A DNA stretch of 64,000 nucleotides from Sulfurimonas sediminis (lineage in GTDB: Bacteria > Campylobacterota > Campylobacteria > Campylobacterales > Sulfurimonadaceae): positions 372,001 through 436,000 of the forward strand of contig NZ_CP041235.1 of assembly GCF_014905115.1 (NCBI RefSeq), in the 5' to 3' direction. The translations under genes were made by a program, and so were the position numbers. Shown piece after piece: positions 36,780 to 43,587 of this stretch (the first letter of the stretch is position 1; each line of letters opens with the position of its first letter). The notes under the pieces are model-generated. The model had not been told where the DNA came from. It searched no databases and was given only the letters and a program-made list of their open reading frames with translations.

Positions 36780-37250
36780 ATGATAGAAGTTGGAGAGAAG
36801 GCACCGGATTTTTGCTTGCCAAATCAAGATGATGTTGAGATGTGTTTACGGGATTTAAAAGGAAAATGGATTGTGTTGTATTTTTACCCGAGAGACAATA
36901 CCCCGGGATGTACAACAGAAGCCTGTGAATTTACGGAGGCTGCTCCGGATTTTTCCTCTTTGGATGCGGTGATTCTTGGTGTGAGTGCAGACAGTACGAA
37001 AAAGCATAGAAACTTCATAGAAAAACACAATCTGGGTATCACACTTTTAAGTGATGAAAGTACCGAGATGATGCAGAAGTACGGTGTGTGGCAGTTGAAG
37101 AAAAATTATGGCAAAGAGTATATGGGCATTGTCCGTTCCACCTTCATTATAGACCCTGAAGGCATTGTGCGTGCAAAATGGGAAAAAGTGCGTGTCAAAG
37201 GACATGTAGAAGCTGTCAAAGAAAAACTCAAAGAACTGCAACAGTCATAA
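36780..37250 (+). CDS. bcp: thiol peroxidase, Bcp-type peroxiredoxin
   Basis: 156 residues from the ATG at 36780, which has a perfect AGGAGG 6-7 bases upstream. The frame stays open into the REP pair upstream, but that part is not protein-like. The peroxidatic Cys is in FYPRDNTPGCTTEACEFTEA, with the resolving Cys five residues later, the atypical 2-Cys Bcp/PrxQ arrangement. It reduces hydrogen peroxide and organic peroxides with thioredoxin. A promoter for the next operon begins 6 bases after its stop. Confidence 0.93.
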   Translation: MIEVGEKAPDFCLPNQDDVEMCLRDLKGKWIVLYFYPRDNTPGCTTEACEFTEAAPDFSSLDAVILGVSADSTKKHRNFIEKHNLGITLLSDESTEMMQKYGVWQLKKNYGKEYMGIVRSTFIIDPEGIVRAKWEKVRVKGHVEAVKEKLKELQQS

Positions 37251-37255
37251 GATGG

Positions 37256-37261
37256 TATAAT
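37256..37261 (+). promoter_or_regulatory. putative -10 box for the TonB receptor-YfiR-like pair
   Basis: TATAAT just after the bcp stop, with the receptor start 52 bases further on behind GGAGG. It would give a 5' leader of about 45 bases. Confidence 0.5.
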
Positions 37262-37313
37262 ATTAAACAAGAATGTGGAAATGTCATGACAGTAATGGTG
37301 TGGAGGAAATGTA

Positions 37314-39362
37314 GTGAAATGTTGTAGCATAAGACTTTTTTTATTTGTCTGTTTGGCAGTGCTGCAACTGCGGGCAGAAGATTTGCTCTCTTCCATTATG
37401 ACAGATATGAAGCAGTTTAATGAAATTGCTACGCAGACAAAACAAAATGAACATTACCAACCCTATATTATCTCTGTCTTTGAAGCAAAAGAGTTGGAAA
37501 AGTTGGGTGTCTCTAACCTCAAAGAGGCATTGTTACTTGTTCCGGGCGTAGATATGGCTACTGATAATTTTAATAACCAGACACCGATTTTCAGAGGTTC
37601 CAATCCTTTTGCCTACGGACAGTCCAAACTGCTCATAGACGGTGTGTTGGTAAACAATCTTTTCTTTGATTCTTATTCCGAGTATTTTTCCATGCCGATA
37701 GAGATGATAAAACGCATAGAGGTTATCAGAGGGCCAGGGAGTAAAGTAGACGGGATTAATGCCTATGCCGGATCCGTTAATGTTGTAACCTATGCGGAAG
37801 ATTTTGAAGAATTTGAATCAAATGACAAAGTTGTATTTAAATATGGTTCGTATGATTACAGAATGGGCGGTTTTGTAAAAAACTTTAAAAGCAAAGACTT
37901 TAAGACACATATAGATTTTTATTACCAAAAAGACAATAAAAATATATCCTCCGGCCCGGACGGACTCTCTCAAGGTGCATTGGGTCCGGCAAACATAGCT
38001 TTGTCCCAGTCAGGTGAGGCTCCCTTATGGCTTGATGAATATTCTCTCGGACTGGATGTACGGTACAAAGAGTTTAGACTCAAAAGCCGTATACTGCAAC
38101 ATAAACAGGGAAGCGCCTACGGGATCAACCTTGCACTGCCTCAAGAGAGTGACAGAATGAAACTGCCGAGTTACTATGCTGAACTGGGGTATATGAAAAA
38201 GACACACCATTTTAAACTGGACATAAAAGCAGGAGTAAAATACGATGCCTTTGATTCAAAAGCAAAACTGGCACCTGATAATTTAGTTTTAGGCAGTGTA
38301 GTATTTCCTGAGGGTATTTACGGAGAGCATTATGCAAAGCAGAGAGTTTTGTATCAGTCTACATATGTAAAATACAGCGGAGTTGCAAAACATACCATTA
38401 CAATAGGCTACAAAGCAAGACAGGAGAAAACAATTGCAATGAGTTCGAAACTCTCCAATCTTGCTACGGGTGATGCAACTTTGGTAGATTATACGCTTAC
38501 ACGGCCGTTTTTTGATAAAGATGCTTCACGGGATGTTTATACGCTCTTTTTGGGAGATGAATACAATGTTAACACTAAGCTAAGCATCTTATACGGTATA
38601 AATTATGAACAGACCTCTTATGAAGATGCAGGGTTTGAGCCAAGAGTTTCTTTTGTTTATCATAAAGATTTCAAAAACATATTTAAAGCTATCTACAGCA
38701 ACTCCCATAGAAATCCGTCCTGGCAGGAGATGTTTACAAAAAACAACAGTGCAAGAGTAGGCAACACAGACTTAAAGCCGGAAAAAGTAACATCGTATGA
38801 ACTGGCATACATCAGAAACTTTTCCAATGATGCCTATTTGCAGGCGAATCTTTTTTATCTTGTCAACAAAGATCAGATATACAATTCTGTTGCGGATCCT
38901 GTCTATAAAAACAGTGCCAAGACAGATATTTACGGAATAGAACTTGAGTTCAGGGGGCATATCCTGCCTAATGACAAAGTGTATGCAAATTATACCTATA
39001 CAGACGGCAACTACAGGATGGATGGCAGCAGCCACAGCCATAACCTGCCGAATGTTTCCCATCATCTGGCAAAAGGATTTTATATTTATAATATAGATCC
39101 TGCTTTGGCTTTGAGTGCAACAGCAAAGTATGTCAGTTCAAAAGAGAGGATCGAGACAGATCTGCGTCCAAAGCTAAAGGCTTATATGACACTCGATACT
39201 GCAGTGAATTATAAAAATATTCAGTATGGTTATATCTTGAATGTCAGTGTGAAAAACCTTTTTGATACAGATGTGCGATACCCCTCTTCTCCAAATACAT
39301 ATGTAAATGACTATGCGCAGGAACGCAGAACATTTTTAATTACCTTTAAGAAGAGGTTTTAG
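37314..39362 (+). CDS. TonB-dependent outer-membrane receptor
   Basis: 682 residues from GTG, with GGAGG about 8 bases upstream. A signal peptide (LFLFVCLAVLQLRA) is followed by a short N-terminal segment, then the plug domain (YIISVFEAKELEKLGVSNLK, VPGVDMATDNFNNQTPIFRG, IKRIEVIRGPGSKVDGINAY) and a barrel ending in Phe (RRTFLITFKKRF). SHRNPSWQEMFTKNNSARVG and NTDLKPEKVTSYELAY are typical barrel strands. The ligand is unknown; siderophores, haem, metals or B12 are usual for the family. The stop directly abuts a YfiR-like gene and a GGDEF-EAL gene follows, so a signalling rather than purely transport role is likely. Confidence 0.88.
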   Translation: MKCCSIRLFLFVCLAVLQLRAEDLLSSIMTDMKQFNEIATQTKQNEHYQPYIISVFEAKELEKLGVSNLKEALLLVPGVDMATDNFNNQTPIFRGSNPFAYGQSKLLIDGVLVNNLFFDSYSEYFSMPIEMIKRIEVIRGPGSKVDGINAYAGSVNVVTYAEDFEEFESNDKVVFKYGSYDYRMGGFVKNFKSKDFKTHIDFYYQKDNKNISSGPDGLSQGALGPANIALSQSGEAPLWLDEYSLGLDVRYKEFRLKSRILQHKQGSAYGINLALPQESDRMKLPSYYAELGYMKKTHHFKLDIKAGVKYDAFDSKAKLAPDNLVLGSVVFPEGIYGEHYAKQRVLYQSTYVKYSGVAKHTITIGYKARQEKTIAMSSKLSNLATGDATLVDYTLTRPFFDKDASRDVYTLFLGDEYNVNTKLSILYGINYEQTSYEDAGFEPRVSFVYHKDFKNIFKAIYSNSHRNPSWQEMFTKNNSARVGNTDLKPEKVTSYELAYIRNFSNDAYLQANLFYLVNKDQIYNSVADPVYKNSAKTDIYGIELEFRGHILPNDKVYANYTYTDGNYRMDGSSHSHNLPNVSHHLAKGFYIYNIDPALALSATAKYVSSKERIETDLRPKLKAYMTLDTAVNYKNIQYGYILNVSVKNLFDTDVRYPSSPNTYVNDYAQERRTFLITFKKRF

Positions 39363-39908
39363 ATGATGCGCTTGTTACTTTTATATTTCTTATTTGTTCC
39401 TCTGCTTTTTGGATACAGTTATGATGAGTTGTTACTCAAAGCACAGGCATCGATTTTTCCAAAAATCATGTTGCTTGATAAAAAAATAGAAACAAAACTT
39501 ATAAAAAACAGACTTGTATATACCATTGTGTGTGATGAAAGTGATTATGGTACAGCCTTACATGTAAAGCAGTATATAGACAATAAATTTAAAGGACATT
39601 TTGATAAATACCCGTATGAAGTGAAGACAGTTGATTTTGCACATCTTGATATGAAAACACCTGCGTCAGCGTTTTATGTTCTGAAATCTTCCAAGGAAAA
39701 TATTGCCAAGGTTGCAAAAATTGCCAGAAAAAGGGGCGTCATCACCTTTTCTTATGATATAGAAAATCTAAAAGAGGGGCTGCTGCTCTCCTTGCTGATA
39801 GAAAAATCAACCATGATTTATCTTAACAAAGAGAATCTGAGAGATGATGTTGATTTTGTCTCTTTTTTATATCAAATGGTAAAGTTTTTGGACAAAGATA
39901 ATTTTTAA
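39363..39908 (+). CDS. YfiR-like periplasmic regulator (DUF4154-like)
   Basis: 181 residues beginning with no gap after the receptor stop. A signal peptide (LLLLYFLFVPLLFG) is followed by an alpha/beta domain: FPKIMLLDKKIETKLIKNRL, AFYVLKSSKENIAKVAKIAR, GVITFSYDIENLKEGLLLSL and a final region dominated by hydrophobic strands. This order of strands and helices looks like YfiR/HmsC, which binds the periplasmic part of a diguanylate cyclase (YfiN/HmsD) and holds it off. The match is by pattern, not by strict motif. The receptor before and the GGDEF-EAL gene after fit that role. TTACATGTAA lies at 39558-39567. Confidence 0.6.
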   Translation: MMRLLLLYFLFVPLLFGYSYDELLLKAQASIFPKIMLLDKKIETKLIKNRLVYTIVCDESDYGTALHVKQYIDNKFKGHFDKYPYEVKTVDFAHLDMKTPASAFYVLKSSKENIAKVAKIARKRGVITFSYDIENLKEGLLLSLLIEKSTMIYLNKENLRDDVDFVSFLYQMVKFLDKDNF

Positions 39909-39927
39909 TATTGTAGTTATGCTAAAA

Positions 39928-39933
39928 TATAAT
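39928..39933 (+). promoter_or_regulatory. putative -10 box ahead of the GGDEF-EAL gene
   Basis: TATAAT 19 bases before the ATG at 39953, giving a short leader. The GGDEF-EAL gene could thus be made apart from the receptor and YfiR-like protein. Confidence 0.45.
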
Positions 39934-39952
39934 CAAAAACAGGTATTGTATA

Positions 39953-41887
39953 ATGAAAGAAAAAAAATTCAAATCGCTCTCATTCAGAATTATGAGTTCC
40001 ATTGTCATTACCTCATTTATCACAATTGGGGGGATTTTTTTTGCATTTGAAAAAATAAACAAACACGCCTTTTATAATATGGAACTCCAAAAAGCAACCC
40101 TCATCTTAAAAACAATAGAACCTTTAATAGCGGTAGATATGTATCTTGGCATAGAAAGACAAATAGATGCGAAATTAGAACAGTTAATGCAGAATAAAGA
40201 AATTCTTTCTGTGCAGATTTTTCAAAAAGGCAAACTGCTGTATGAAAAGAAATCTAAAAATCATTATGAAAGCCTTTTTGTCCTGAAGTGGGATATTCTT
40301 AAGCCAAATTCCAGGAAGAAAATAGGAACAATTGTTTTAAACTATTCAAATCACAATTATGAACAGCTTACACAACAGTATACACATTTGCTTCTCAAAA
40401 TGCTTGTGATTCTTTTCTTGATATTTATATTTCTTGGTGCTTATATAGAAAATTTACTCAAACCTTTGCGAAAAATTGCCAATATACTTCATGGTTTTAC
40501 ACCGGAGAAAAAATTAAAGATAGAACCGATACAAGAGAAGAATGAAATTTCTCTTATAGTTTCTGCATTAAATGAGATGCAGGAGAGAGTATTTGACTAT
40601 GCAAGAAAACAAAAAGATATCAATGCCTATCTGGCAAGAGAAGTTGAAAAGAAAACAGTAGAGTTGAAAAGACAGCTCTTTATAGATGATCTGACACAGC
40701 TGCCCAACAGAAAAAAGCTTTTTTACAATATAGAACATCTGGATAATGACGGGGCATTGCTGATTTTAAATATAGATGATTTTAAAGAGATAAATGATTT
40801 CTACGGACAGATTGCAGGGGATTATGTTCTCATAGAATTTGCAAAAAAACTGCAGGCTTTTGTCGAAGAGGAACAAAATATCAGTGTCACACGACTCTCA
40901 GGAGATGAATTTGCTCTGTGCTTCAGAGCAAGGCCTTCTCACAGGACTTTTATGCGAATTGTCAACAGTCTGTCAAAAGAGATTGAACAGATGGTCTTTC
41001 ATTATGAAGAAAACGAGATTTATATCCGTGTGACAATGGGTGGAACTTTACAGCCCAATGAGATGCTGGAAAAAGCAGATATTGCTCTTAAGGTTGCCAA
41101 AGAGCAGAAAAAATATTTTTTGCTGTATGATGAGAAACTTAAAATAGAGAGAAAATATCAAGAAAATATGGAGTGGGTGAAAAAACTAAAAGCTGCCATA
41201 AAAGAAGAGAGAATAGTGCCTTTTTTTCAGCCTATCTTTGATACCCGGACGAAAAAAGCGGTGAGTTATGAGTGCCTCATTCGCCTGATAGAGACAGACG
41301 GCTCAGTTGTCAGTCCTTACAGGTTTTTAGACATTGCCCAAAAAAGTAAACTTTATCCGCAGTTAACAAAGATTATGCTGAGTAAAAGCTGTCAATATTT
41401 TCAACACAGAGATACATCATTTTCGGTCAATCTTTCTATTAATGACATTCTTGATGCAGAGATGGTGCACTATATTCAAAAAACCGTTAAAAAATACGGT
41501 GTCAGCAAAAAAATAGTTTTTGAAATTCTTGAAACGGAAGGGATTGAAAATTATGAAGAGGTTTCAGCTTTTATACACAAGATGAAAGCATTGGGCTGCA
41601 AAATTTCCATAGACGATTTTGGCGCGGGGTATTCCAATTTTGAGCATATGCTCAAGCTTGATGTTGATTACATTAAAATTGACGGCAGTCTTATCAAAAA
41701 TCTTGAAACAGATGTAAATGCTCAAATAGTTGTTGAGACAGTTGTGGATTTTGCGAAGAAGTTAAACTTGGTAATTGTAGCAGAGTTTGTTCATAATCAA
41801 GCGGTGTTTGAAATAGTCAAATCGCTTGATATTGAACGGGTACAGGGATTTTATCTGGGTGAACCAGATAAAGAGATTTTAGATTAA
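39953..41887 (+). CDS. membrane GGDEF-EAL c-di-GMP signalling protein
   Basis: 644 residues. Membrane helix about 13-31, a periplasmic sensor region of about 115 residues, helix about 146-166, a HAMP-like linker (PLRKIANILHGF onward), GGDEF domain (about 240-400) and EAL domain (about 405-640). The cyclase site is S316-G317-D318-E319-F320, a permitted SGDEF variant. The phosphodiesterase site keeps E440 (ECLIR in place of EALLR), NLSIND, ETEGI, DDFGAGYSN, the Lys of KIDGSLIKN, and VAEFVHN with QGFYLGEPD, so all usual metal and catalytic residues are present. It resembles YfiN in layout but adds an EAL domain. Its stop overlaps the stop of the convergent porin-like gene. Confidence 0.9.
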   Translation: MKEKKFKSLSFRIMSSIVITSFITIGGIFFAFEKINKHAFYNMELQKATLILKTIEPLIAVDMYLGIERQIDAKLEQLMQNKEILSVQIFQKGKLLYEKKSKNHYESLFVLKWDILKPNSRKKIGTIVLNYSNHNYEQLTQQYTHLLLKMLVILFLIFIFLGAYIENLLKPLRKIANILHGFTPEKKLKIEPIQEKNEISLIVSALNEMQERVFDYARKQKDINAYLAREVEKKTVELKRQLFIDDLTQLPNRKKLFYNIEHLDNDGALLILNIDDFKEINDFYGQIAGDYVLIEFAKKLQAFVEEEQNISVTRLSGDEFALCFRARPSHRTFMRIVNSLSKEIEQMVFHYEENEIYIRVTMGGTLQPNEMLEKADIALKVAKEQKKYFLLYDEKLKIERKYQENMEWVKKLKAAIKEERIVPFFQPIFDTRTKKAVSYECLIRLIETDGSVVSPYRFLDIAQKSKLYPQLTKIMLSKSCQYFQHRDTSFSVNLSINDILDAEMVHYIQKTVKKYGVSKKIVFEILETEGIENYEEVSAFIHKMKALGCKISIDDFGAGYSNFEHMLKLDVDYIKIDGSLIKNLETDVNAQIVVETVVDFAKKLNLVIVAEFVHNQAVFEIVKSLDIERVQGFYLGEPDKEILD

Positions 41888-43440
41888 TATCTGTAGCGTA
41901 AGTAAAAACGGATATCCTGTGCTTTATCCACATAATTAGCAGCACCTGCCATTGTTGAAGATATTTCTACCGAATTTCCTGAAGTGCTTCCAAAGAAACC
42001 GTTGCTTCCGGCATAATTATAGTCTATATAGGTATATCGGATTTGTAAAGAGAGGATGTCTTCTATCAAAGGTTCGGTAAAGTATGCTTCGTAGGCATTA
42101 CCGCGTGCTGCGAGTTTTGAACCGATATTTGTGTCTTCCGCATAGGTAATACTTCTCCAGTATTTCGAGCCGTGATTAAATTCTAGTCCCCATCTTCCCT
42201 CTTCGCTGATAAGTGATGGGTACTGCAGACCAATCCAATAGGAATATCCTTTGACACTTTCATCAATTTTGCTTCCCAGCATACTCTGTCCCTTGTCCGG
42301 ATCTGTAATACTCACAGCACCACTGACAAAAAATACGGTATCATCCAAAAAGTCGTTGATTCCGTCGCCTATTCCGTTTGCGACAAAGTTTGCTGTAAAG
42401 GAGTGTATATTGCCGACAGTATCAAAACCACCAGTTCCTGTGTTTACATCAATTAAATTTCCTGCATAATAGTATTGCGAGTTGATACTGTACTGTCCGT
42501 CACTCCAGGGAGTAAAGATGAGTCCGACCAGATCTATAGAGGCATTGGAGGTTGTATCGGCGTACGGTGCTGTGTTAAATCTTGGAGCGGCATTGCTCAT
42601 ACCGCGACCGGCACAAAATTTGACATACATTCCGTCAATACCGGTAACATTTTCCAAATTAAACTTGGAACTCAAGCCGTCAAACTCAACATTGATAGTA
42701 TGCCCCATAGGTGAAGCGGCATGATCATCATCTCTCAGGTTGACAAGATGCCCGTTTGTTGAAGGACGGCGTCCTACACTGAATGTCCACGGAATATCAC
42801 TGCCCATAAAGGTGTCGTTTTTATAGAAAAAGTATGCAGAACGTACTCTGAGTGTATCATCGTAAGCATTTTCATTGGCGATCCAGTCAAATGTTTCAAA
42901 AGAGCCATTTGCAGGAGTAACACCGCTTCTTGCACCAAATGCTTTGTTGTATGCAAGTTGTCCTGTAAAACTCAGGTGTTTTGTAGCCGCCCAGTTCATA
43001 TTTAACCAGAGTCTATTTGTCATAAAAGCATTGTTCTTTTGTGTACTGCCGTCTGCCATTTTGTACTGGAGATTGTCAACGGCAAATCTGTAATCAACAT
43101 TGAATTTTATGTGATTTCCGTTTGTGTTTCTGTTAAGGTTAGAGATGGAGTCCTGAATTTCTTCAAGCTGCTCTTCTACCGTCATTTCATCATCATCTTC
43201 GTCATCTTCTTCATCTGATGAAGCTGTTGCCTCGGTATCATCAGCCGATTCCTCCTCGTCAGCATCTTCTTTTTGCATCATTGAAGCATGGTCTTGTGCT
43301 TTAAGGGCATCAAGCTCTTTTTTCATTTTTTGCATTTCAAGTTCCATTGCTTGAAATCTGTCATACATTGATTCGGCATTTACATTCGTTGTTCCTAAAA
43401 TAGCAATAGTTGCTAAAGAAAGCAGTAGAGGTTTCTTCAT
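41884..43440 (-). CDS. porin-like outer-membrane protein (DUF3373-like)
   Basis: About 518 residues from the ATG at 43440, which has AAGGGAC upstream; the frame extends 13 codons further but that part is not signal-like. A signal peptide (LLLSLATIAILGTTNVNAES), a coiled-coil stretch (YDRFQAMELEMQKMKKELDA), a very acidic segment of about 40 residues (about 60-100) and a second coiled coil precede a large beta barrel that ends in YLRYRY. The coiled coil may trimerise or reach the peptidoglycan. It looks like the DUF3373 porins of Campylobacterota. The substrate is unknown. Confidence 0.75.
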   Translation of the reverse strand: MKKPLLLSLATIAILGTTNVNAESMYDRFQAMELEMQKMKKELDALKAQDHASMMQKEDADEEESADDTEATASSDEEDDEDDDEMTVEEQLEEIQDSISNLNRNTNGNHIKFNVDYRFAVDNLQYKMADGSTQKNNAFMTNRLWLNMNWAATKHLSFTGQLAYNKAFGARSGVTPANGSFETFDWIANENAYDDTLRVRSAYFFYKNDTFMGSDIPWTFSVGRRPSTNGHLVNLRDDDHAASPMGHTINVEFDGLSSKFNLENVTGIDGMYVKFCAGRGMSNAAPRFNTAPYADTTSNASIDLVGLIFTPWSDGQYSINSQYYYAGNLIDVNTGTGGFDTVGNIHSFTANFVANGIGDGINDFLDDTVFFVSGAVSITDPDKGQSMLGSKIDESVKGYSYWIGLQYPSLISEEGRWGLEFNHGSKYWRSITYAEDTNIGSKLAARGNAYEAYFTEPLIEDILSLQIRYTYIDYNYAGSNGFFGSTSGNSVEISSTMAGAANYVDKAQDIRFYLRYRY

Positions 43441-43470
43441 TTCGTCCCTTTTTTGTGTTGTTTCTGTGAT

Positions 43471-43476
43471 ACTATA
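43471..43476 (-). promoter_or_regulatory. putative -10 box for the porin-like gene
   Basis: TATAGT on the minus strand, about 30 bases before the ATG at 43440, giving a leader of about 24 bases that contains the AAGGGAC ribosome site. Confidence 0.4.
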
Positions 43477-43587
43477 CATTGTTTAAGATAAATTTACTTT
43501 TAAACAAGTGCAGATATATATAAATATTTATTATGCAAACGAAAAATGGCATCTTTTTAAAAAAGCTGGCTTTAAATAAAGTTTTAG

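Follow-up and report, generated by a model that had tools for sequence, protein, structure and literature searches.

A conserved module of TonB-dependent receptor, YfiR-like protein and membrane GGDEF-EAL protein in Sulfurimonas sediminis, and the loss of an acyltransferase gene from its head

Three adjacent genes of Sulfurimonas sediminis, encoding a TonB-dependent receptor, a small exported protein resembling YfiR and a membrane protein with GGDEF and EAL domains, were found to form a module from which this strain has deleted a fourth gene, that of an acyltransferase assigned to the LuxI / N-acyl amino acid synthase superfamily (hereafter the synthase). The genes lie in a 64,000-nt stretch of contig NZ_CP041235.1, here called the window, and coordinates are positions within it (Table 1). 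A reading given about even chances is that the trio works as a trans-envelope signalling module, its ligand most likely being the acyl product of the synthase and the window strain answering a signal made by others. The presence of the synthase gene before the receptor gene in relatives suggests an undescribed cell-to-cell signalling system. The deleted synthase gene, the swappable outputs and the spread of the module go beyond a preliminary description of this DNA and are visible only from other genomes.

The trio lies entirely on the + strand, the first base of the YfiR-like gene being the base right after the last of the receptor gene, and the GGDEF-EAL gene following after a gap of 44 bases. 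This layout, with a -10-like element TATGCTAAAATA in the gap, had been given in the preliminary description and was recovered, the element being kept in relatives; because this promoter-like element recurs ahead of the GGDEF-EAL gene, that gene may also be expressed separately from the receptor. Within the Campylobacterota sample, the YfiR-like family was present in 56 of 397 genomes and 16 of 68 genera, and neighbours were counted within three genes of the YfiR-like gene for 134 distinct family members. A TonB receptor was encoded near 126 of these and the same sensor N-terminus near 129. The co-occurrence of the three families that had been proposed was borne out by this survey, since receptor and sensor genes were both found at 82 of the 90 full-context loci (those with at least 2.6 kb present on both flanks), one of them at 8 and neither at 0. 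As the S. sediminis genome, a single 2.32 Mb contig, holds only five TonB Plug matches, yet 126/134 YfiR-like genes are near a TonB gene, the linkage is not attributable to chance, by which a receptor gene next to that of the YfiR-like protein would be expected for less than roughly 1% of genes. In this genome the YfiR-like family has a single member, and the sensor domain occurs at full length once.

Among close loci the order of receptor, YfiR-like and GGDEF-EAL genes was kept in every one as far as the contig reaches. In 105 relatives the median spacing from TonB to YfiR-like gene was -1 base, these two being the tightest-abutting pair of the module. Distant loci vary in order, with the receptor gene upstream on the same strand, the receptor gene divergent, or the sensor gene ahead of the receptor gene; the linkage persists down to about 20% identity and with several copies per genome. 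Canonical PF13689 genes inspected in the phylum likewise adjoin TonB genes, most of them with GGDEF or kinase genes close by. Across the phylum the trio is kept together as a conserved unit. Correlated tree distances of the three proteins (r 0.86-0.88) were set aside as evidence of linkage, because co-inheritance accounts for them. At three loci (L070, L072 and L075), YfiR-like and GGDEF sensor genes occur with no TonB gene nearby and with PAS-HD and chemoreceptor genes beside them; the receptor may there be encoded at another site. A copy of the Sulfurimonas-type operon was also seen in a contig titled Gammaproteobacteria (L034, JADGDG010000019.1), the bin probably being mislabelled or mixed.

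The preliminary description had further called the small protein YfiR-like and credited its neighbour with both an SGDEF cyclase and a complete EAL phosphodiesterase, and both assignments stood. The 181-amino-acid protein itself gave no Pfam match, a direct PF13689 search of the protein and of its own genome was also empty, no significant NCBIfam match was obtained, and against the PDB phmmer found none while a profile search returned a single match at chance level. Its homologues at L045, L068 and L075 score 29.5, 26.1 and 34.8 bits on PF13689 (cut-off 24.9), L045 matching the window protein at 5.9e-20 (phmmer; homologues from the same genus). The AlphaFold2 model, for which 70 homologues were used, reached a predicted local distance difference test (pLDDT) score of 92.8, and its comparison with YfiR/HmsC gave as top PDB fold matches the YfiR crystal structures 4yn9, 4yn7 and 4zhu (YfiB-YfiR complexes), with template modelling scores, normalised to YfiR, mostly of 0.66-0.77 and at most 0.77. 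Next in rank were single-domain substrate-binding proteins of Rhodothermus and a tryptophan-binding ATP-binding cassette protein. The protein is thus, by its modelled fold and its homologues, a divergent YfiR/HmsC protein, and since the predicted fold speaks for a ligand binder as much as for a repressor, it is a candidate periplasmic ligand binder or adaptor. The receptor comprises a plug (amino acids 50-153) and a barrel from there to the C-terminus; Pfam detected only these, with no N-terminal STN signalling domain, and the closest solved relative is Cir (2e-18).

The GGDEF-EAL protein consists of a transmembrane segment, a periplasmic domain, a second transmembrane segment, a HAMP-like region, the SGDEF cyclase and the EAL phosphodiesterase, and its first 232 amino acids were modelled by AlphaFold at a pLDDT of 92.3. 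The periplasmic sensor domain, common to relatives with other outputs, has weak fold matches to the WalK sensor, the LapD-type CdgS9 output domain and LuxQ. Both active sites are conserved, making the output in this lineage an enzyme of cyclic di-GMP (c-di-GMP) turnover: none of the 44 relatives compared departs from the EAL catalytic residues, and nearly all retain the GGDEF signature, so that the predicted enzyme could shift c-di-GMP either way.

Elsewhere in the family the sensor N-terminus is joined to GGDEF-EAL, PAS-GGDEF-EAL, GGDEF, histidine kinase or kinase-receiver outputs, the histidine-kinase version having a response regulator gene in some loci. On the tree of the YfiR-like protein at least 13 output changes were counted, compared with about 63 when labels were shuffled, and through these changes the receptor, the adaptor and the sensor N-terminus stay constant. 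The core is therefore taken to be receptor, adaptor and periplasmic sensor, c-di-GMP being one output among several. At three loci, each beside a TonB gene, a YfiR domain is itself fused to GGDEF, to a SpoIIE phosphatase or to a kinase-receiver. At a further TonB-YfiR locus (L138:6684-8378), a CHASE8-SpoIIE sensor was seen. Outside the Campylobacterota the sample consisted of plasmids only, among which there were four YfiR-like matches, from two Sphingobium, one Indioceanicola and one Pseudoalteromonas plasmid (Alpha- and Gammaproteobacteria). All four have a TonB receptor gene before the YfiR-like gene and a kinase or GGDEF-EAL sensor gene after it, the Pseudoalteromonas sensor matching the N-terminus of the window sensor at 5e-21, and the architecture is therefore wider than the Campylobacterota. 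The plasmid search with the synthase gave no match.

In the clade to which the window belongs, a gene for an acyltransferase of about 195 amino acids usually precedes the receptor gene on the same strand, overlapping it or lying a few bases away. The synthase at L186 matches PF13444 (Acetyltransf_5) at 1.3e-12 and PF00765 (Autoind_synth) with 29.8 bits (cut-off 24); the remaining members fall below the PF00765 and FeeM cut-offs, the FeeM match being weak, and the NCBIfam model of exosortase-associated acyltransferases is also matched below its cut-off. The best PDB matches of the synthase profile are acyl-homoserine lactone synthases, and residues R20, E41, D43, D46, E100 and R103, which include a glutamate of the active-site type, are invariant in 22 members. 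On these profile and residue matches the acyltransferase is placed in the LuxI / N-acyl amino acid synthase superfamily. Forty of the 47 strong synthase matches sit 2.03-2.15 kb upstream of a YfiR-like gene with the receptor gene in between; of the other seven, two abut a receptor gene at contig ends, two stand where the contig breaks off before the expected receptor gene, and three lie elsewhere. In the phylum sample the YfiR family occurs in 28 of the 30 genomes with a strong synthase match, compared with 56 of all 397 (Fisher p about 4e-25, uncorrected for ancestry). Every linked synthase belongs to one side of a well supported division in the tree of the YfiR-like protein, the other side having none. 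In a rearranged group (L187, L192-L195 and L200), synthase, TonB receptor and YfiR-like genes stand together and the sensor gene is divergent beyond the synthase gene. Off-module relatives of the synthase at L251:2957-4424 (genome G410) and L252:3755-5283 (G474) immediately follow a leucine carboxyl methyltransferase family gene, perhaps reflecting a pathway to a different acyl product.

The fate of the synthase gene in S. sediminis was read from its sister genome G011, whose YfiR-like protein is 94% identical to that of the window. Between the peroxiredoxin and receptor genes, G011 has a gene for a synthase of 196 amino acids whose stop codon overlaps the receptor GTG, whereas in the window the alignment to G011 runs as far as 37250 and picks up again at 37301, the synthase being absent in between. 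Of the synthase gene, only a short 3' stub of about 7 degenerate codons appears to be left before the receptor start, and no other synthase copy was found in the S. sediminis genome. The window strain thus lost the synthase by deletion and kept the trio. Broken synthase remnants occupy the same place in genomes G120 and G070, where the trio is present, and because each of these has intact-synthase relatives nearby on the tree, decay of the synthase occurred at least three times. Deletion of the synthase with retention of receptor, adaptor and enzyme suggests that the window strain is receiver-only and would respond to a signal made by others.

From gene order, protein families, folds, conservation, output swaps and the linkage and loss of the synthase, we infer a ligand and its route, a set of protein contacts and a change, of either sign, in c-di-GMP. 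The TonB receptor would capture a small ligand from outside and TonB-driven transport would deliver it to the periplasm, where the YfiR-like protein would bind it and then bind or release the periplasmic domain of the GGDEF-EAL protein, whose c-di-GMP balance would change in response. In the ancestral operon of the clade, with the synthase directly before the receptor, the acylated product would be this ligand, acting between cells, and it is the position of the synthase gene directly ahead of the receptor gene that makes the acyl product the most likely ligand. That such a system, running from acyl signal through a dedicated TonB receptor and a YfiR-family protein to a c-di-GMP enzyme without LuxR, and repeatedly losing its synthase while keeping its receiver, amounts to a new class of quorum sensing is put forward tentatively, at somewhat under even chances. 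Several observations weigh against the reading of a trans-envelope module with an acyl signal: the window strain has no synthase, three synthase genes are away from any module, at seven full-context loci no receptor gene lies within three genes of the YfiR-like gene, and the substrate of the synthase is not readable from sequence. Moreover, since a synthase is never present in the other half of the family, receptors of this class taken together must also respond to something else.

Those last absences, the wider family being mostly without synthase, also favor a module that senses nutrients or hydrocarbons, answering an outside lipid, alkane or chelator, with the acyltransferase making a surfactant or membrane lipid that aids uptake and no signal at all. 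N-acyl amino acids are surfactants (PMC4897644), and the related receptor TOL_0244 rises on the n-C28 alkane. However, across several genera the synthase gene goes with this one receptor gene, the two sharing a few bases, and no further biosynthesis gene recurs among the neighbours of the loci, so this explanation is regarded as unlikely. The ligand would need neither to enter the periplasm nor to be self-made if the sensor is held in check by the YfiR-like protein until the ligand-loaded receptor plug pulls that protein off, as YfiB does with YfiR, an arrangement that suits the YfiR fold and the close abutment of the two genes. The preliminary description had implied that no lipoprotein gene of the OmpA type is near the module, and indeed no OmpA-type motif occurs in the open reading frames of the module loci, leaving a place that the receptor could fill. 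Nevertheless, YfiR fusions tethered to the inner membrane still lie beside TonB genes, where plug contact is harder to picture, and substrate-binding proteins share the fold. Import and capture of the ligand are preferred on account of these fusions to inner-membrane outputs and this fold, which fit import and capture at least as well as plug contact, neither being proof, and removal by the plug is held to be rather unlikely. Inside-out control in the manner of LapD, the GGDEF-EAL protein sensing internal c-di-GMP and governing a periplasmic partner, would accord with the LapD domain order and the weak fold match of its periplasmic domain with CdgS9; it is very improbable given that the EAL catalytic residues are invariant and SGDEF/GGDEF kept, that the genome has no LapG protease (PF06035), and that histidine kinases replace the output elsewhere. 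Close Sulfurimonas loci do have one shared arrangement, as would neighbours held together by inheritance without shared function, but linkage that outlasts rearrangement, divergence to about 20% identity, multiple copies per genome and occurrence in other classes, together with the existence of fusions, makes passive proximity hardly credible.

Table 1. Features of the module locus in the window and YfiR-domain fusion loci in other genomes.
Feature	Position	Strand	Basis or remark
Peroxiredoxin (Bcp/AhpC-TSA) gene	36780..37250	+	Pfam AhpC-TSA 1.5e-42; aligns with sister G011 up to stop codon
Deletion scar, holding ribosome-binding region of receptor gene	37251..37313	+	Alignment to G011
TonB-dependent receptor, GTG start, 682 amino acids	37314..39362	+	Pfam Plug 6e-17, barrel 2e-33
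Divergent YfiR/HmsC-like exported protein, 181 amino acids	39363..39908	+	PF13689 via homologues; AlphaFold fold match
TATGCTAAAATA, -10-like element	39918..39929	+	Seen in matching gap of several relatives
Membrane GGDEF-EAL protein, 644 amino acids	39953..41887	+	Pfam EAL 2e-63, GGDEF 2e-23
Periplasmic sensor domain, about amino acids 35-140	40055..40372	+	Profile A2, found on 123 proteins
GGDEF domain (SGDEF)	40682..41113	+	Pfam, motif conservation
EAL domain	41183..41866	+	Pfam; residues E440, N493, E527, D554, D555, K575, E611, Q631 retained
YfiR-domain fusion loci	L150:2248-3792, L151:2622-4535, L152:1957-4509		GGDEF, SpoIIE phosphatase or kinase-receiver

The peroxiredoxin gene is the conserved left flank of the deletion and lies outside the module. 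On the other side, the gene of a DUF3373 protein (41884-43479) is convergent with the GGDEF-EAL gene, their ends overlapping by 4 bases. A second operon of the same plan was seen in the same genome outside the window, on the - strand at about 310360-314631 (G000:C1; L259:4861-9132), with overlapping genes for a TonB receptor, a 147-amino-acid exported protein without Pfam match and a 632-amino-acid GGDEF-EAL protein.

If true, the preferred reading of an imported acyl signal would reveal the way in which proteins of the YfiR family take in signals from outside, and the question of what they sense would gain a named candidate source of ligand. TonB receptors would become general inputs to c-di-GMP and kinase signalling, the Campylobacterota (Sulfurimonas and relatives) would gain a signalling system of the acyl type, and the strains without synthase would be a natural example of receivers without senders.

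Among known systems the module most resembles YfiBNR and HmsCDE, in which a YfiR-family periplasmic protein is encoded beside an inner-membrane GGDEF protein with a periplasmic domain, as in E. coli yfiR-dgcN-yfiB. Those systems use an OmpA-type lipoprotein, however, whereas the module here has a TonB receptor instead; its enzyme adds an EAL domain, its relatives use kinases, and the operon of the clade includes a synthase. A TonB receptor as signal input is known from FecA, and in this respect Fec-type transducers are similar; a transducer of that type was rejected, as the receptor is without an STN domain and no sigma/anti-sigma pair is among the recurrent neighbours. In LuxP-LuxQ a periplasmic binding protein controls an inner-membrane signalling protein through its periplasmic domain, a like concept, although the protein families are other ones and the module here adds an outer-membrane receptor to the operon. 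LapD has degenerate GGDEF and EAL domains, and identity with it was rejected because the catalytic residues here are intact and PF06035 (LapG) was not found in the genome.

The pairing of receptor and adaptor is paralleled in Thalassolituus, where the TonB receptor TOL_0244 and the YfiR-like protein TOL_0243, both represented in NCBIfam, carry successive gene numbers. The window proteins score far below the cut-offs of both models, the receptor reaching 98.9 against a cut-off of 645 on that of TOL_0244. Long-chain alkane induces TOL_0244, which is similar to OmpS of Alcanivorax, reported as needed for alkane detection (PMC6304351); in the account consulted no synthase or c-di-GMP enzyme is described with the Thalassolituus pair. 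The induction and the likeness to OmpS lend support to signalling through such receptors and to a hydrophobic ligand. The synthase of the relatives shares its superfamily with LuxI, FeeM and the exosortase-associated acyltransferases. In contrast to LuxI quorum sensing, there is no LuxR gene at the loci, the receiver being an outer-membrane receptor with a periplasmic relay; the receiver-only strains recall the LuxR solos, which are receivers without a synthase (PMC4886534). No description of a TonB-YfiR-sensor relay or of its link to a synthase was found in a literature search that left most subscription journals outside, so a prior description is possible. As the TonB-YfiR pairing is already visible in annotation, the link to the synthase and the receiver-only state should be taken as the new parts.

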